A DNA stretch of 35,231 bases from Xanthobacter autotrophicus (GTDB taxonomy: Bacteria; Pseudomonadota; Alphaproteobacteria; Rhizobiales; Xanthobacteraceae): assembly GCF_030015065.1 (NCBI RefSeq), contig NZ_JAIVFN010000039.1, positions 1 through 35,231 of the forward strand. The letters run 5' to 3'. Below are positions 128 to 35,063 of the stretch, in pieces. The notes under the pieces were generated by a model, which made no database searches, was not told the origin of the DNA, and saw only the letters and a list, made by a program, of their open reading frames with translations. The position numbers and the translations under genes were made by a program. Positions within the stretch are counted from its first letter, which is position 1; every line of letters begins with the position of its first letter.

Positions 128-1790
128 CTGGAAATGGTTCGAATGCCTGACCGAGACCAAGAAGGCGCAGGCCCGTGCCAAGCTGGAAGCCCTGCAGGCG
201 GTGGATGCGCTCGTCGTCGCCGGCACCGAGCGCGACCTCGCCATGATGATGGTGGCCGGCCAGCTCAAGCTCACCCGACGCACCCTCTACAACTGGGCGG
301 CGGAGGTGCACGGCATCGAGCGGGCCGACTGGCTCCCCTTCCTCGCCCCGCAGCATGCCGGGCGGCAGGCCGAGGCCGAGTGCTCGCCGGAGGCGTGGGA
401 GTGTTTCAAGGGGCTGTACCTGCGGCAGGAGCAGCCCACCGCCACCAAGTGCTATCGCGACCTTGAGAAGATCGCGAAGGAGCGGGGCTGGACCATCCCG
501 TCGCGCAAGACACTGGAGCGCCGCTTGGCCAAGCTCGACCGGGCGACCACCGTCTATTTCCGGCAGGGGCCCGAGGCGCTCAAGCGCCTCTATCCCGCCC
601 AGCAGCGCGACCGCACCGCGCTCCATGCGCTGGAGGCGGTCAACGCGGACGGCCACAAATGGGACGTCTGGGTCAAGTGGCTGGACGGCACCATCGCACG
701 GCCGGTCATAGCCGCCTGGCAGGACCTCTATTCGGGCCTCACCCTGGCGTGGCGGGTCGACCGCAGCGAGACGAAAGAGGTGGTTCGGCTCGCCTTCGGC
801 GACGTGGTCGAAACCTACGGCATCCCCGACCACATCGTCCTCGACAACGGGCGGGCGTTCGCCAGCAAGTGGCTCACCGGCGGCACCGAGACCCGGTACC
901 GGTTCAAGGTGAAGGATGAGGACCCCACCGGCCTCTTCCCCGCGCTCGGCTGCGAGGTGCATTGGGCGACACCCTACCACGGCCAGTCCAAGCCCATCGA
1001 GCGCATGTTCCGGGACTTCTGCCAGGACATCGCCAAGGATGTTCGCCTCGCCGGCGCGTGGACCGGCAACACGGTGGCCAACAAGCCGGAGAATTACGGC
1101 TCGAAGGCCATCCCCCTCGAAGTCTTCCTGCAGGTGATCTCCGAGGGCATTACCGAGCACAACAGCCGGCTCGGCCGGCGCACCGGCACCTGTGCCGGCA
1201 AGCTCTCATTCCAGCAGGCTTTTGCTGCCTCCTACGAGGTGTCGCCTATCCGTCAGGCGACGGCCGAGCAGGCCCGCCTGTTCCTCCTCGCGTCCGAGCT
1301 GGTCACCGCGCGGCGGCCGGACGGCGCCGTGCACCTCTACGGCAACCGCTACTGGTGCGAGGCGCTGGTGGACGCCATGGGCCGCAAGGTGGTGGCCCGC
1401 TTCGATCCAGACGCGCTGCATGCCGGCGTCCACCTCTACCGGCCGGACGGCGCCTATCTCGCCTTCGCCCCCTGCGTGGAGGCGGTGGGCTTCTTCGACA
1501 CCGAGGCGGGCCGTGCCCATGCCCGCGCGCGCTCCGATTGGCTCCGGGCGGCCAAGACCATGGCCCACGCCGAGCGGCGCCTCGCGCCCGAGGACGTGGC
1601 CGCCATGCTGCCGCAGGTCACGCCGCCCGAGCCGCCCGAATCCAAGGTGGTGCGGCCGGTGTTCGGCACCGTCGGCAATGCGGCCCTCAAGGTGGATCAC
1701 GCGCACGACCAGGAGGCCGTGCTCACGGATTTCGGGAAAGCCGTCGCGATGCTCGTCGCCTCCCGAAAAGGAGACGGCGCGGAGGAGTGA
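128..1790 (+). pseudogene. A: Mu-type DDE transposase A, N-terminally truncated by an IS
   Basis: This is the phage transposase that binds the prophage ends and carries out strand transfer. The phage-derived frame starts with WKWFECL at base 129 and stays open to 1790 (553 residues against 663 in MuA). Catalytic residues are intact: Asp in VNADGHKWD (codon 648-650), Asp in VLDNGRAFA (843-845) and Glu in GQSKPIERMF (999-1001). TRYRFKVKDEDPTGLF and GKLSF match MuA closely. Aligning the first Asp with MuA D269 places the break near MuA residue 96, so the enhancer-binding Iα domain and the start of the end-binding Iβ domain are missing. No ATG lies in frame near the break; the first plausible start is GTG 201. 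The frame also stays open back through the IS. Activity is doubtful. Confidence 0.85.
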
Positions 1791-1843: not shown

Positions 1844-2818
1844 ATGAATATCGCGGTCGGAGAAACGCTGACCCTCGAAGAGATCGAGGCGATCCGCGCG
1901 GAAGTGCGCATCATCATGGCGGAAGAAGGCCTGACACAGGCCGACATCTCCAAGGAAACCGGCATCGCCTACGGCACCTTCACCGCGTGGAACGCCGGAA
2001 CCTACAAGGGTGACAATTCCGGCTTCGCCATCAAGGTGCGCCGGTGGCTGGAAACCCGGCGCGAGCGCAAGCGCACCCATTCGGTACTGCCCAAGGCGCC
2101 GAGCTTCGTCGCCACGCCCACGGCGCAGACCGTCATGGAGATCATGGCCTTCGCCCAGGCGGCGCCGGATCTTGGCGTGGTGGTGGGGGGCGCCGGCATC
2201 GGCAAGACCACGGCCATCGAAGAATACCAGCGCCAGCACTCCAACGTTTACGTGGTGACCGCCGAGCCCTGCCTCTCCAGCCCCAACAATATGTTGTCGG
2301 CCATCGCCGACGAGCTGGGCGTCATCGAGCGGCGCAACACCTATGTGTCGCGTGCCATCGTCGCCCGGCTCAAGGGCGCCTCGGCACTGCTGGTGGTCGA
2401 TGAGGCGCAGCACCTGTCCAGCCAGGCGCTCGACCAGCTGCGCACCATCCACGACAAGGCCCGCTGCGGCGTCATCGTCTCGGGCAACGAGAGCGTGTTC
2501 GCCCGCCTGCAGGGCGGCGAGACCAAGGGCGCGCAGTTCGCGCAGCTGCATTCGCGGGTGGGCATGCGGATCGTGCAGGCGACGCCCCGCGCCCGCGACA
2601 TCTGCGCCCTGGTGGCGGCCTGGGGGATCGATGCGGCCTCGCCCGAGGCCAACCTCCTCAAGCTGATCGCCCGCAAGCCCGGCGCCCTGCGCGGCCTCAC
2701 CAAGGCACTGCGCATCGCCAACATGCTCGCGGCCGGCTCCGGCGAGGCCTTGAGCGCGCGGCACATCCGGCAGGCCTGGTCGCAGCTGTCGTCGTCCAGC
2801 CTCGACACCGCAGCGTGA
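1844..2818 (+). CDS. B: MuB-type target DNA activator ATPase (AAA+)
   Basis: This 324-residue protein is the partner of transposase A. In Mu, B polymerises on target DNA in an ATP-dependent way, delivers it to the A-bound ends, and stimulates strand transfer. It has a helix-turn-helix at about residues 29-50 (LTQADISKETGIAYGTF), Walker A GGAGIGKTT at 115-123, Walker B LLVVDEA at 182-188, and a C-terminal DNA-binding region (KPGALRGLTKALR at 278-290). The frame is open far upstream inside A, but ATG 1844 is preceded by AGGA and sits 53 bases after the A stop. Length matches MuB (312). It looks intact although A is broken. Confidence 0.9.
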   Translation: MNIAVGETLTLEEIEAIRAEVRIIMAEEGLTQADISKETGIAYGTFTAWNAGTYKGDNSGFAIKVRRWLETRRERKRTHSVLPKAPSFVATPTAQTVMEIMAFAQAAPDLGVVVGGAGIGKTTAIEEYQRQHSNVYVVTAEPCLSSPNNMLSAIADELGVIERRNTYVSRAIVARLKGASALLVVDEAQHLSSQALDQLRTIHDKARCGVIVSGNESVFARLQGGETKGAQFAQLHSRVGMRIVQATPRARDICALVAAWGIDAASPEANLLKLIARKPGALRGLTKALRIANMLAAGSGEALSARHIRQAWSQLSSSSLDTAA

Positions 2819-3493: not shown

Positions 3494-3846
3494 GCGCTCC
3501 CGTCTCCATCTCCGCTTTCCACCGGGCACTGGACATCGCCGACTTCCTGTCCACATCCGGCAACCGGCGACAAATTCACAGGGTGTCCGTGGACGACACC
3601 CGCGATCTCGTCCGGACCGTGGTCGCCCTCGCGCGCGTCGCCCAGGCGGCGGCGGACTATCTCGTCGCCCAGGAGGTGGCGCTCGACGCCACGGAGCACC
3701 CGCTCGACACCACGGAGAAGTTCGCCGCGTCGGAGGCCGCCGATGCGGCTGTCGGCGCGACCCATGACGCTCTCACCGAGGCGCTTGTCGCGCTCGGCTA
3801 CCTCATCCTTGAAACCCCGGAGACCACCAATGGAAACGCAGGCTGA
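3490..3846 (+). CDS. Small early-region protein of unknown function
   Basis: This 118-residue protein is not recognised. It is alanine-rich and predicted to be largely helical (TRDLVRTVVALARVAQAAAD, EAADAAVGATHDALTEALVA), without a signal peptide or membrane segment. The start ATG overlaps the previous stop by four bases. The end overlaps the next gene by 17 bases. Only the position in the early operon can be used to suggest a role. Confidence 0.7.
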   Translation: MSAPVSISAFHRALDIADFLSTSGNRRQIHRVSVDDTRDLVRTVVALARVAQAAADYLVAQEVALDATEHPLDTTEKFAASEAADAAVGATHDALTEALVALGYLILETPETTNGNAG

Positions 3847-4489
3847 ATACGTGGCGGCGCCGTACAGCGACGGCGTGATTGAAGTCAGCGGCAAGAAGTA
3901 CATGGCAGACGCCAAGGGCGCCCTGGTGCCCTTGGCCCTCGTCAAGCCGGTGGACAAACTCACCGACGAAGCCGTGCGCAAGATGATCCACTACGCGCGT
4001 GACCTGTCGGCTCAAATTGGCCGGTTCCGCGGCCATTGCTTCGATGATGTCGGCTCCCTTCAGGCTCTTATCGCCCAGGAGTACGGCGCCACGGTCGGTG
4101 GCCAGAAGGGCAATATTTCGCTGACCACTGTCGACGGCACGCTCAAGGTGCAGGTGCAGGTGGCCGACCTGATCGAGTTCGGCGCCGAGCTGCAGGCGGC
4201 GAAAAAGCTTCTGGATGCCTGCCTCTCCGAGTGGGCGGAGGGTTCGCGCGACGAGATCCGCGCGCTCGTCACCCGCGCGTTCCAGGTCGACAAGGAAGGT
4301 GTCGTGAACCGCGCCGAGCTGTTCATGCTGCTGCGCTTCGACAGCCCAGACGAGCGCTGGCGCAGCGCAATGGCTGCGATCCGCGACAGCATCCGCGTGA
4401 TCGGGTCGAAGACCTACATCCGCTTCTACGAGCGCGCCGCCCCTGATGCTCAGTGGCAGTCGATCAGCATCGATCTGGCTCGGGCCTGA
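3830..4489 (+). CDS. DUF3164 family protein
   Basis: This 219-residue protein matches the DUF3164 family often found in the early region of Mu-like phages. Typical features are the N-terminal DAKGALVPLALVKP, DEAVRKMIHYARDLSAQI, FRGHCFDDVGSLQALIAQEY, and the TTVDGTLKVQVQVAD segment. The C-terminal half contains EIRALVTRAFQVDKEGVVN and ERWRSAMAAIRDSIRVIGSKTY. The biochemical function of the family is unknown. ATG 3830 is chosen over the upstream in-frame start because family similarity begins here and a longer form would run across the end of the previous gene. Confidence 0.85.
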   Translation: METQAEYVAAPYSDGVIEVSGKKYMADAKGALVPLALVKPVDKLTDEAVRKMIHYARDLSAQIGRFRGHCFDDVGSLQALIAQEYGATVGGQKGNISLTTVDGTLKVQVQVADLIEFGAELQAAKKLLDACLSEWAEGSRDEIRALVTRAFQVDKEGVVNRAELFMLLRFDSPDERWRSAMAAIRDSIRVIGSKTYIRFYERAAPDAQWQSISIDLARA

Positions 4490-4499
4490 GGAGGGGATG

Positions 4500-4709
4500 A
4501 TGGCTGAGACCAAGGGGCCGACGCCCATCTCAACCGAGCTGGACCTCTATCTTGAGAGCTTCCAGGTCGTGCTCACCTTCACCTTCGGCAGCGAAGAAGA
4601 GGCCGATTCTGTCTTCGACAAGATGGGCGCCTCCATCAAGGCCAAATTGCTGGAGATCAAAGCCGTCCAGCCGCGCGCGCCCATCGAGAGCGACGGGGGT
4701 GCAAAATGA
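4500..4709 (+). CDS. Small early-region protein of unknown function
   Basis: This 69-residue acidic protein begins MAETKGPTPISTELDLYLES. Two consecutive ATGs occur at 4497 and 4500. AGGAGG at 4489-4494 is only two bases from the first and five from the second, so 4500 is preferred. It ends with an ATGA overlap onto the next gene. The FGSEEEADSVFDKM segment is helical and has no membrane span. Family and function are not recognised. Confidence 0.65.
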   Translation: MAETKGPTPISTELDLYLESFQVVLTFTFGSEEEADSVFDKMGASIKAKLLEIKAVQPRAPIESDGGAK

Positions 4710-4969
4710 CCTTCTTCGCCTTCACCAACCGCGCTGGCGTCATCGGCTTCGGCCACCGCATACCGGCAGACGCCCTCCACATCGCGGACGATCCAGACCA
4801 GGGGCGGCTGCACGACGTGGTCGAGGGCCTGGCCCGCCACGACCATGACGGGGAAACCCTGCTGGTGCCCGGCATCCCCGAAGCCACCTTCGAGTTCGAT
4901 GCGGTGGATGCGCTCCTGGAGTTCCGACGCCGGGTCGCCCGTCGCCTTGCGCAGGAGGCGCGGCCATGA
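4706..4969 (+). CDS. Small early-region protein of unknown function
   Basis: This 87-residue protein has a histidine- and aspartate-rich centre ([28 protein letters not shown]), followed by [20 protein letters not shown] and a basic C-terminus. It overlaps its neighbours by ATGA at both ends and directly precedes the DnaA-like gene, so the two are probably translated together. No metal-binding family could be assigned. The His/Asp content alone is not proof of metal binding. Confidence 0.7.
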
Positions 4970-6030
4970 CGGCGCTCGATCTCCACTGCGACGACGCCAC
5001 GCCCTTCGCCGACGAGGCCGGGGCCAACCAGCATTATCGCGAGGTGGGCCTCCGCCTTGGCCGCGGCGTCCGCACGCCCATCGTCGGCCGGCGGCCGACC
5101 AGGGTTGTCCAGGCGGAGCCGCCGGCGCCTCTCGTTGCCGCCGCCCCTCCGCCGCCGCCCCGCGTGGCGGATGCCATGCCCGGCCTGGTGATCGGGCCGG
5201 CCAACGCGCTCGCCGTCCAGGCGCTGGAGCACTTCGCCGCCGGCGCCATCGAAGGCCCGCTCTACATCCAGGGCGCGCCGGGCCTCGGCAAGTCGCTGCT
5301 CGCGACGGCAGCGCGCATCCTGTGCCCCACCGCCGTGGTGCTCGATGACGCCGACGACAAGATGGCGACGCCAGCCATGCAGATGAAGCCGGCGCGCCTG
5401 GTGCTCACGTCCGCGGCGCTTCCCGTGGAGCAGGCCAATCCGACCCTGCGCCGCATCTGCCGGGAGGCCGCGCTGGTCACCCTCGGCGCGTTCGACCGGA
5501 ACCACACTCAGGCCGTGGCGCTGGCGATGGTGCAGACGCATCGGCTCCATTTCCCGGAGTTTGGCCTGCCTGAGATCGTGCTCGACCACCTCGTCGAGCA
5601 CTGCAGGGAGGGTCATGTCCTGGGCGCCGCCATCAAGGGCCTGCTGATGCGCCACTGGTCGGGCGCCGACATCACCGCCGGTGCGGCGGCGGAGATCCTG
5701 GCGGCCTACGAGGGGGAAAGGGCGCTCCAGCGCATCACGATTGCCCAGGTCCGGAAGGTGGTGGCGGCGCATTACGGCGTGTCCGTCGTGGACCTCTGCT
5801 CGCAGCGGCGCACGGCCGCCGTGGTGCGCCCCCGCCAGATCGCCATGTACCTGGCCAAGATGCTCACCCTGCGCTCCCTGCCGGAGATCGGCCGGGCCTT
5901 CGGCGGGCGCGACCACACCACCGTGCTCCACGCCACCCGCAAGTTCGCGACCCTCGCGTGCACCAATGCCGCGGTCGCCCGCGAGATGGCGATGCTGGAA
6001 CAGAAGATCCGCGGGGGAGGTGAGGCATGA
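4966..6030 (+). CDS. DnaA-like replication initiator protein
   Basis: This 354-residue protein has the architecture of DnaA domains III and IV. A Pro-rich linker (51-65) leads to an AAA+ region with Walker A GAPGLGKS at 103-110 and Walker B VVLDDAD at 124-130. A complete DnaA domain IV follows (about 257-345), with [11 protein letters not shown] at 288-298, [11 protein letters not shown] at 304-314 and the DnaA signature [12 protein letters not shown] at 315-326. The N-terminus does not look like DnaA domain I. The region expected to hold the sensor-2 arginine (VREL in host DnaA) reads HVLG at 217-220, so regulation by hydrolysis may differ. It could bind DnaA boxes, recruit DnaB, or interfere with oriC. 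It is ATGA-coupled to both neighbours. Confidence 0.85.
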
Positions 6031-6773
6031 CACTCGCGCATGGTGTTGCGAGGGGAGCCGATGGTCAGCCCCTCGCGATCGGAGATCGCGAAATGATCGC
6101 CGCCGCCCCCGCCTCCTCCAAGCAGATCGGCGCCATCCATGCGCTCAAGGCCCGCATGGGGCTCGACGACGACAGCTATCGCAATGTGCTCCAGGCCGAG
6201 ACCGGCCAGCGCAGCGCCAAGGGCCTGTCCGCCACCCAGGCCGGCCGTGTGCTGGACCGGCTGAAGGCCTGGACCAATCCCGTCGCGCCTGCGGCTGCTG
6301 CGCCCGTAAAGCCCGCGGCCGAGGGCGCCCTGCGGCTGGAAGGCGCCTATGTCGGTGTGTGCCGCGCGCTCTGGCTCGCCTGCTACAATCTCGGCCTCGT
6401 CAGGGACCGCACCGACCGCGCTCTTGTCGCCTTCGTGGAGCGCCAGACCGGCATCGCCTCGCTCAACTGGGTCCGTGACGGCAAGGACGCCCGCAAGGTG
6501 ATCGAGGCGCTGAAAGGGTGGCTCGGCCGGTCCGACATCACGTGGGACGTGCCCGCCGACACCCTCGCCAAGTGGGGCTATACGCTGCCGCGCTGGCGCA
6601 AGCTGGCGGTGATCCGCGCCCAGGTGAAACGCCTCCACGAGATGGGCGAGTACGCCGCCACCCCGACCCGCGCCGCCCTGGACGCGGCCGACGAGCGCGG
6701 CCTCGACGAGATCTCCTCGGACCTCGGGCGCCGCCTGCGCAAGGCCCTCGGCCGCAAGACGGGAGGCAAATGA
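6027..6773 (+). CDS. gemA: GemA-type regulatory protein (DUF1018)
   Basis: This 248-residue protein matches the Mu GemA/DUF1018 family. The usual N-terminal pattern appears as [26 protein letters not shown] and [17 protein letters not shown]. The C-terminal half ([20 protein letters not shown] and following) is longer than in Mu. In Mu, GemA modulates host gene expression and DNA supercoiling early in infection. ATG 6027 is preceded by GGAGGTGAGG and overlaps the DnaA-like stop by four bases. A second in-frame ATG at 6093 coincides with the usual family start, so a shorter product is possible. Confidence 0.85.
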
Positions 6774-7042
6774 TGGCCCGCCGTCGCTCGCCCTCCTGCC
6801 GGCGGCCGCGCCGCCGCGCTGTCACCATCCCTTTCGAGACGCTGCTCGCCGGCGACCCGGAGCTGCAGCGCTATCATGCGCGCTGCACGGGCAACGGCAT
6901 GTCGCTGCGCACGCCGCGTCTCTGGAGCCGCCGGGACGGCAGCTTCACCGCGCGTTTCGAGTGGTGCCGCCACGACGGGGCGAACACCACCTCCATCGTC
7001 TACACCTGCACCTATGTGCGGGAGGCGGCGGCGCAGCCATGA
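6770..7042 (+). CDS. Small arginine-rich early protein of unknown function
   Basis: This 90-residue protein begins with a strongly basic stretch (ARRRSPSCRRPRRRA), followed by a more ordinary domain (IPFETLLAGDPELQRYHARC) and a tail with W, C and T residues (FTARFEWCRHDGANTTSIVY). The basic arm could contact nucleic acid, which is inference. Starts at 6770 (overlapping the gemA stop) and 6773 (better spaced from GGAGG) are both possible. It lies just before the Mor-like activator gene and overlaps it by four bases. Confidence 0.65.
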   Translation: MMARRRSPSCRRPRRRAVTIPFETLLAGDPELQRYHARCTGNGMSLRTPRLWSRRDGSFTARFEWCRHDGANTTSIVYTCTYVREAAAQP

Positions 7043-7410
7043 GCGATCTGCCGCCCCCCACCCGCGAGGTATCGCGCCTCGCCCGCCTGATCGGGCCGGA
7101 GCCGACGCTTGCGCTGGTGGAGCGGTGGGGCGGCACGCGGCTCTATGTGCCTAGCCCGATCCCGGAAGGGCACGAGATCTGGCATGTGGTCGGGGTGGAC
7201 GCGGCGCGCTATCTCGCCGAGCGCTACGGGCACGGCCAGATGATGGTGCCGGTGGCCCGGCGCTGGCGGGTGCTTGTCTATCGCGCCCGAGGCATGTCTT
7301 ATGCGCAAATCGCGCGGGCGGTGGGCGGCAGCGAGCGCTCCGTGTACCGCATCCTCTCCGAGACCGAGGGCGCGATCGGTCAGATGGATTTCTTCGACCG
7401 CCTGATCTGA
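7039..7410 (+). CDS. mor: Mor/C-family transcription activator of late genes
   Basis: This 123-residue protein resembles Mu Mor and C. It has an N-terminal dimerisation part (LARLIGPEPTLALVERWGGT, then a short strand LYVPSP) and a C-terminal helix-turn-helix (RARGMSYAQIARAVGGSERS at about 86-105, followed by VYRILSE). Length is close to Mor (129). It is the last gene of the early operon and ends one base before late promoter 1. Mu has two activators in series (Mor then C). Only one is seen here, so it probably acts on all three boxed promoters directly. Confidence 0.85.
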   Translation: MSDLPPPTREVSRLARLIGPEPTLALVERWGGTRLYVPSPIPEGHEIWHVVGVDAARYLAERYGHGQMMVPVARRWRVLVYRARGMSYAQIARAVGGSERSVYRILSETEGAIGQMDFFDRLI

Positions 7411-34196: not shown

Positions 34197-34253
34197 CCCG
34201 CCCCACCGCACAAGGCGGCGCCGGAAGCTGACTGAGTCGTGGGGGTTCCACCA

Positions 34254-35063
34254 GTGGCAGAATCAGTTTTCCGACCCATTCGGCCGATATCGCCGGTGGC
34301 AGGCTATGTTGGGGGTAAGCGCCGGCTGGCCGGCCGGATCATCGAGCGCATCGATCAAGTCCCTCACCATCTCTATGCCGAGCCCTTCGTGGGTATGGGC
34401 GGCGTCTTCCTCCGCCGGCATCAGGCGCCGCCTGTCGAGGTGATCAACGACATCAGCGGCGACGTCGCCACCTTCTTCCGGGTGCTGCAGCGGCACTACG
34501 TGGCGTTCCTTGAGATGCTGCGCTTCCAGATCACATCGCGGCGTGAGTTTGAGCGCCTGGTTGCGACGGACCCGTCCACCCTGACCGACCTGGAGCGGGC
34601 GGCCCGCTTCGCCTACCTGCAGCGCACGGCTTTCGGGGGCAAGGTGGTCGGACGGACATTCGGGGTCGATGCCCGGTCGTCGGGCCGGTTCAACGTCACC
34701 CGCCTCGGTCCACTCCTGGAGGAACTGCACGAGCGTCTCGCCGGCGTGATCATCGAGCGCCTGCCCTATGCGGACTTCCTCACCCGCTACGACCGCAAAG
34801 GGGCACTCTTCTATCTCGACCCGCCCTATTGGGGCAGCGAGGGCTACTATGGCCCCGCTTTCGACCGGTCAGACTTCGCGCGCCTCGCCGAGGTGCTGGG
34901 CGGGCTGCAAGGGCGGTTCCTGCTCTCTATCAATGACGTACCCAGCGTCAGGGAGATTTTCGCCGCCTTCGAGATGGAAGAGGTAGAGACGAGCTACTCG
35001 CTTAATGGGGCTGGCCGCTTACCCAAAAGGGCCGGAGAGTTGATCATAGCCGGCGGAGGATGA
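34254..35063 (+). CDS. dam: DNA adenine methylase (D12 class)
   Basis: This 269-residue D12-class N6-adenine methyltransferase carries the AdoMet-binding motifs AGYVGGKRRLAG (about 16-27) and EPFVGMGGVFL, the catalytic motif DPPYWG, and family segments EVINDISGDVATFFRVLQRH and RAARFAYLQRTAFGGKVVG. It would methylate phage and host DNA, perhaps protecting it from restriction. Mu has its modification gene mom in the same place at the right end. Specificity (GATC or other) cannot be read from sequence. GTG 34254 follows a GGGGG sequence; GTG 34239 is an alternative. Confidence 0.9.
   Translation: MAESVFRPIRPISPVAGYVGGKRRLAGRIIERIDQVPHHLYAEPFVGMGGVFLRRHQAPPVEVINDISGDVATFFRVLQRHYVAFLEMLRFQITSRREFERLVATDPSTLTDLERAARFAYLQRTAFGGKVVGRTFGVDARSSGRFNVTRLGPLLEELHERLAGVIIERLPYADFLTRYDRKGALFYLDPPYWGSEGYYGPAFDRSDFARLAEVLGGLQGRFLLSINDVPSVREIFAAFEMEEVETSYSLNGAGRLPKRAGELIIAGGG

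Follow-up and report, generated by a model that had tools for sequence, protein, structure and literature searches.

A Mu-like phage operon in Xanthobacter autotrophicus carries a gene for a DnaA-type protein that combines an intact DNA-reading domain IV with a cut-down AAA+ domain. The gene lies in the window, by which we mean the whole 35,231-nt stretch of DNA that was analysed. Four observations stand behind our reading of this gene, namely its position in the operon, its DnaA ancestry, the intact reading residues and the missing initiator parts. Judging from the sequence, we tentatively favour a DnaA paralogue that the phage may keep as a DnaA-box binder, competitor or regulator at host DnaA sites, and not as an initiator. 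The features of the gene and its operon are as follows.

201..1790, + strand: MuA transposase, truncated at its 5' end by the contig edge (DDE_2, 2.4e-58)
1844..2818, + strand: MuB-like AAA+ transposition protein (Phage-MuB_C, 1.5e-22; start picked by eye)
3830..4489, + strand: DUF3164 protein, marker of these Mu-like operons (6.4e-80; start picked by eye)
4706..4969, + strand: gene immediately upstream of the DnaA-like gene (PHROG 'host nuclease inhibitor')
4966..6030, + strand: DnaA-like gene, 354 aa, with a phage-type N-terminal region, a trimmed AAA+ domain III and domain IV
5005..5109, + strand: N-terminal region, residues 14-48, which replaces DnaA domain I and resembles the N-terminus of the L048 protein (low model confidence)
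5272..5295, + strand: Walker A, GAPGLGKS, residues 103-110
5332..5349, + strand: Walker B, AVVLDD, residues 123-128, 12 residues past Walker A
5614..5616, + strand: His217 at the sensor-2 arginine position (GHVLG), from the alignment
5734..6027, + strand: domain IV (DnaA-box reader) and C-terminus, agreeing with E. coli at 12 of 12 checked contact positions
6027..6773, + strand: GemA (7.4e-32)
6961..7410, + strand: Mor/C-like late activator

The initial annotation had placed a DnaA-like protein within the replication operon of a Mu-like phage, and this placement is confirmed by family models that matched MuA, MuB, DUF3164 and GemA. The genes run in the order MuA, MuB, small genes, DUF3164, 'host nuclease inhibitor', DnaA-like gene, GemA and Mor/C-like activator, with the Bac_DnaA_C gene inside the MuA/MuB-DUF3164-GemA operon. 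The start of the DnaA-like gene sits in the stop of the upstream gene, which ends at 4969, and its own end sits in the gemA start at 6027, giving 4-base overlaps on both sides. This tight coupling speaks for the reading that we favour, and the frame itself is open with coding composition (GC3 0.91). With no stop in the MuA frame as far back as base 3, the contig begins inside MuA, and the left end of the phage is absent from it. At the right end of the window, the gene at 34239-35063 resembles an adenine-specific DNA methylase, as judged by reading the sequence.

On sequence grounds, the DnaA ancestry of the protein is certain for domain IV, and the AAA+ part is DnaA-related though cut down. 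Pfam matched Bac_DnaA_C (PF08299) to residues 260-326 with an E-value of 5.7e-28, and the best solved relative of the protein is domain IV of E. coli DnaA (8.4e-23). We checked 12 domain IV positions (398, 399, 407, 408, 415, 423, 432-436 and 438 in E. coli numbering) that we take to lie at or next to the DNA, and all 12 are identical in the window protein, a plasmid relative (L043), the host DnaA, E. coli DnaA and the six viral-contig DnaA proteins compared. The complete domain IV seen earlier is thus borne out, as are the Walker A and B motifs, both of which were located. For the names and roles of motifs we follow what we take to be the usage of the DnaA literature.

The AAA+ part is more distant from the known models. 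The Pfam Bac_DnaA model was not significant on it (E = 0.089), and the protein missed the cut-off of the DnaA equivalog TIGR00362 (136.5 vs 343.9 bits). With NCBIfam, the whole protein scored far better as DnaA (1.3e-39) than as Hda (0.0041), the DnaA score being due largely to domain IV and the last part of domain III, while the AAA+ fragment alone gave 0.0025 for Hda and 0.0061 for DnaA. A profile built from the N-terminal and AAA+ parts of two members, the window protein and L043, had matches at E <= 1e-4 in 154 of the 397 genomes of the order; nearly all of the matches listed were in open frames of ~470-725 aa, mostly over the sensor-1-to-lid region. The profile also matched the host's own dnaA (5.2e-6), and 17 of the 29 retrieved loci that were examined contained the domain IV motif within the stretch available.

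The AlphaFold2 model had a pLDDT of 42.6 without an alignment and of 82.3 (pTM 0.63) with a 30-row alignment containing 29 DnaA-type relatives, residues 1-42 being below 50. The best PDB matches to the model by E-value were DnaA structures (8btg, 2.3e-13; 1l8q, 3.8e-10), and general AAA+ proteins such as FtsH, RuvB and Hda ranked after them (Hda 3bos at rank 28). By target length, the TM-score was 0.61 against domain III (2z4r) and 0.92 against domain IV (1j1v); superposition of the whole chain on the PDB matches was loose (TM 0.36-0.45 by query length, rmsd 7-14). The check on an AAA+ fold that had been proposed earlier thus led to DnaA structures, although a model built on an alignment of DnaA proteins does not prove the fold independently.

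The phylogeny of domain IV against chromosomal DnaA, also proposed earlier, was run on 134 rows and 96 columns and does not resolve the origin of the gene: the window sits on a long unresolved branch and no starred set contains it, its nearest neighbours by path being DnaA of Xanthobacteraceae and other Hyphomicrobiales. With the window placed in this way, a recent capture from the host is unsupported.

Chromosomal DnaA (TIGR00362; Bac_DnaA and Bac_DnaA_C) shares with the window protein the 12 contacts, the Walker A and B core and an alignable C-terminal part of domain III. In contrast to it, the window protein has only 354 aa and several initiator parts are missing or altered. In an alignment of 30 rows (the window protein and 29 others), the distance from the Walker A serine to the first Walker B aspartate is 16 residues in the window and 45-55 (median 53) in the 29 others. 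This stretch, 37 residues short of the median, is the largest change and had gone unnoticed in the initial annotation; past Walker B, 9 further residues are absent (16 vs a median of 25). The initiator-specific motif (ISM) of DnaA lies between Walker A and B, and it is this stretch that is trimmed in both the window protein and L043. The loss of the sensor-2 arginine, suspected from the start, is supported by the alignment, where His217 occupies this position and L043 has a His too. The box-VII arginine finger is doubtful: Ile161 occupies its column in the window protein, but arginines lie 1-2 residues away, and L043 has no arginine there. Domain I also appears to be absent as had been claimed, in that no DnaA N-terminal Pfam match was listed for the protein up to E 0.1.

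Hda is likewise DnaA-related and lacks the full ISM, but unlike the window protein it has no domain IV. We considered an Hda-like regulator, whose trimmed AAA+ domain would bind host DnaA-ATP at the DNA and change its nucleotide state. The slightly better score of the AAA+ fragment on the Hda model and the presence of 3bos among the fold matches point toward it, as does the missing ISM stretch. We nevertheless regard it as quite improbable: the protein has a domain IV and as a whole is far closer to DnaA, and the arginine finger that Hda needs appears not to be conserved. Hda binds the sliding clamp through its N-terminus, and inspection of the window protein by eye gave no convincing motif for clamp binding, the N-terminal ALDLH having been considered and dropped.

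The missing parts bear most directly on the initial annotation's naming of the protein as an initiator that could load the helicase at transposition forks. A protein with no domain I, no ISM stretch, no arginine at sensor 2 and a doubtful arginine finger is unlikely to be an initiator that loads the helicase, and this option was rejected as the leading reading. Mu itself uses a PriA-type restart and is not known to need DnaA, and no origin with DnaA boxes was seen in the window. A helicase-recruiting initiator for phage forks, binding the transposition intermediate and loading DnaB, is thus the least supported option and in our judgement highly improbable, even though the gene sits in the MuA-MuB operon and phage-labelled contigs carry longer DnaA III-IV proteins that have the ISM stretch, some of them beside helicase- or methylase-like genes (by eye). 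Also in favour of this option, DnaA-like (ORF77) and DnaB-like proteins have been reported for Brucella phage BiPBO1 (PMC4729917).

As the initial annotation had suggested, both phage and host were scanned for DnaA boxes. In the 35-kb window, TTATCCACA at <=1 mismatch occurred 0 times with 1.0 expected, and TKATCCACA at <=1 mismatch occurred 6 times with 6.0 expected, indicating no excess. The targets of the protein are therefore probably outside this part of the phage, although the zero count for TTATCCACA, merely one below expectation, is weak evidence for a target outside the window. Target sites could also lie in the left end of the phage, which the contig lacks, and this counts against the reading that we favour. 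No cluster of DnaA boxes was seen in 11 other loci, comprising the host dnaA contig and otherwise phage or plasmid stretches, and a phage origin with DnaA boxes was accordingly set aside. Perfect boxes are scarce in the host too, with 4 in the 5.04-Mb draft genome and 23 sites for a reversed control pattern; the 4 are isolated, one of them by plasmid-like replication genes, and none is convincing as oriC. The scan thus yielded no near-consensus box in the window and did not place the host oriC. Elsewhere in the host genome (L285, G000:C2:131000-133800), ParA and a replication-initiator-like gene (by eye) lie beside two DnaA-box-like sites in an AT-richer stretch that resembles the origin of a plasmid or integrated element.

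Apart from the window, only L043 yielded the trimmed AAA+ form, which corresponds to 2 of 14 genomes of the genus and 2 of 296 of the family. In the family search, 5 of the 296 genomes matched at E <= 0.001. Of the three others, one matched through the N-terminus of the L048 protein, one (L045) weakly and again at the N-terminus, with stops, and one (L046) is a longer DnaA of phage type. Across the order (397 genomes) and the class (385), the window's own genome counted in each, the trimmed form was the only match at 1e-10; at most six candidates per genome were scored among the matches listed, so that a copy could be missed. Conserved peptides of the two-row alignment found no close AAA+ relative in viral or GTDB contigs, and none occurred in the phage collection; one was found on a plasmid. 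A whole-protein scan of GTDB gave at least 80 loci with ORFs of 461-906 aa between stops, and several that we read are ordinary dnaA genes.

The plasmid relative (WP_203196942.1; L043, also L290:15001-16062) is a 353-aa protein encoded on the 145-kb plasmid NZ_CP063364.1 of X. dioxanivorans YN2. Like the window protein, it has the trimmed AAA+ domain followed by domain IV, Walker A and B, His at sensor 2 and all 12 contacts, but its surroundings differ in that the gene lies with Dot/Icm-type secretion genes, ParA and TopA on a plasmid and not in a Mu-like phage. It is annotated merely as a 'helix-turn-helix domain-containing protein' and could be a plasmid replication or copy-control factor.

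The rarity of the trimmed form in the family, and a graded series that runs from a fuller AAA+ domain (L001, L004, L005) through the trimmed one (window, L043) to domain IV alone (L048, L266), can be read as signs of a decaying passenger, an acquired dnaA fragment on its way to being lost, in which domain IV is conserved only through recency. We consider this improbable, as the plasmid relative, only 35% identical over the region, shows the same trimming, Walker motifs and sensor-2 His, and as the window gene has retained an open frame of coding composition coupled on both sides.

Another genome of the genus (G160) contains a sister prophage whose DNA is 81-86% identical to the window over three long blocks, with ~70% identity over part of MuA. 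In place of the window gene it has a short form.

L266:10239-10649, - strand: domain IV only, 136 aa, G160 sister prophage

The short form occupies the same slot: it directly follows the nuclease-inhibitor gene, which its start overlaps as in the window. Its DNA aligns with the window gene through domain IV to the stop codon, while its reading-head residues are altered (SKRLRERHRTTL vs RRRQKPRDHTTL in the window). The two genes thus seem to be a long and a short state of a single gene. Because the sister prophage keeps only domain IV in this position, the slot would seem to need no AAA+ motor. The short form is followed by ~1 kb of other small ORFs before GemA, which the window does not have.

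In another genus of the family, a Mu-like prophage (L048) encodes a 198-aa domain-IV protein past DUF3164 (PF08299, 7.6e-9). The likeness of its N-terminal region to that of the window protein was reached by 0 of 2000 shuffles, as was that of L005, while 19 of 2000 shuffles reached the score of L043 and 80 of 2000 that of L004, a close sister of L005 that resembles the window much less. By the same test, L007, L050 and L266 had no N-terminal likeness to the window.

Domain-IV genes of this kind are widespread in the operons marked by DUF3164. Among the viral DUF3164 loci, taken as the best 80 of 308, a domain-IV ORF was present in 37 at a loose cut of 0.05 and in 34 at a domain E <= 1e-4. DUF3164 also occurs in 19 of 296 same-family genomes, the window's own included, at 22 places; of these we read 20 loci, made up of 19 regions and L048 (the two other places being the window's own and a partial one), and 12 had domain IV. 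The 46 rows obtained in this way (34 viral and 12 family) represent 42 distinct sequences, the identical pairs being L056/L057, L076/L274, L078/L273 and L096/L278. Mu itself is not known to encode a DnaA, in line with the initial annotation; but Mu-like phages with DUF3164 commonly carry genes for a DnaA domain IV, which makes the window gene less new in this respect, as had been foreseen for a common member of such phages.

These domain-IV-only proteins (for example, L048, L056, L063 and L266) share the operon with the window gene and are often beside DUF3164. Unlike it, all 46 rows lack a Walker A ahead of domain IV in the ORF, and each departs from at least one of the 12 contacts; R399, D433, H434 and T435 are all kept in 19 of the 34 viral rows and 3 of the 12 family rows. 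Many carry a C-terminal extension instead. In L054, L056, L063, L124 and similar loci, domain IV is N-terminal, the extension is C-terminal, and the gene lies directly upstream of DUF3164. The genome of the window itself encodes a second small DnaA domain-IV protein (L041, G000:C80:6505-6765) in a 155-aa frame, with RDRST replacing RDHTT.

Given this drift of the reading residues among the relatives with domain IV alone, DnaA-box reading is not a fixed property of the slot, which counts against the reading that we favour. The main rival is a transcription regulator without any role in replication, whose domain IV would control either phage early genes, through sites in the absent left end, or promoters of the host that DnaA regulates. 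Such drift among common operon relatives is expected of a helix-turn-helix module that acquires new specificities, the short form in the sister prophage has replaced its reading-head residues, and the absence of the left end from the contig leaves room for such targets. The window protein, however, keeps the full DnaA-box reading head together with an AAA+ remnant, neither of which a dedicated phage promoter factor would need, so that we hold this role to be possible but unlikely. A broader and rather doubtful idea is that a slot near DUF3164 and GemA serves Mu-like phages as an exchangeable 'host-origin decoy'. In the window it would be filled by a DnaA-box reader gated by ATP, which during transposition would displace host DnaA from oriC or poison it there, and in the sisters by domain IV alone with new specificities.

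DnaA-like proteins in phages are known, and what is new here is a DnaA with a trimmed AAA+ domain in a Mu-like phage. DnaA III-IV proteins with no domain I seen are encoded on phage-labelled contigs (L001, L004, L005, L007, L008) and in a prophage-like locus of the family (L046). The five on phage-labelled contigs have intact domain IV contacts as in the window, but they retain the region from Walker A to Walker B (among those aligned, it spans 45-53 residues, with L007 at the low end), and the window's MuA had no match in the compared stretches around these genes. The sixth of the viral-contig DnaA proteins compared (L003:7026-8477) has an apparent domain I; its contig may be host DNA or a phage that captured a whole dnaA. 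The AmM-1 record contains a 'DnaA C-terminal domain containing protein', and the viral structure library has many 'DnaA C-terminal' entries; among 38 phage records with a domain-IV match, we found none of the 60 MuA-bearing phage records that were compared, out of 171. Searches of an open-licence literature library turned up no description of a DnaA-like protein in a Mu-like phage.

Taken with the DnaA-site reading that we favour, these data fit a mechanism in which the DnaA-like protein would be made early together with the transposition genes, and its intact domain IV would bind host DnaA boxes at oriC and at DnaA-regulated sites. The short AAA+ domain may bind ATP, yet it would be unable to build or fire an initiator filament; because of this, occupation of the host boxes could lower or reprogram host initiation during transpositional replication of the phage. 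Of the possibilities raised in the initial annotation, binding oriC and blocking host initiation would fit best, because the DNA-reading residues are intact. A pure decoy would have no need of Walker A and B, and their retention speaks against a simple decoy.

The domain-IV count in the viral loci points to a role for this gene set in DUF3164 Mu-like operons, where the annotations seen for relatives are hypothetical or helix-turn-helix proteins, and the two Xanthobacter prophages, one with the long form and one with the short, offer a clean comparison. If our reading is true, the window gene would be a natural competitor of DnaA made by a phage, and could serve to examine if host initiation is silenced during phage transposition and what minimum of DnaA suffices for this.
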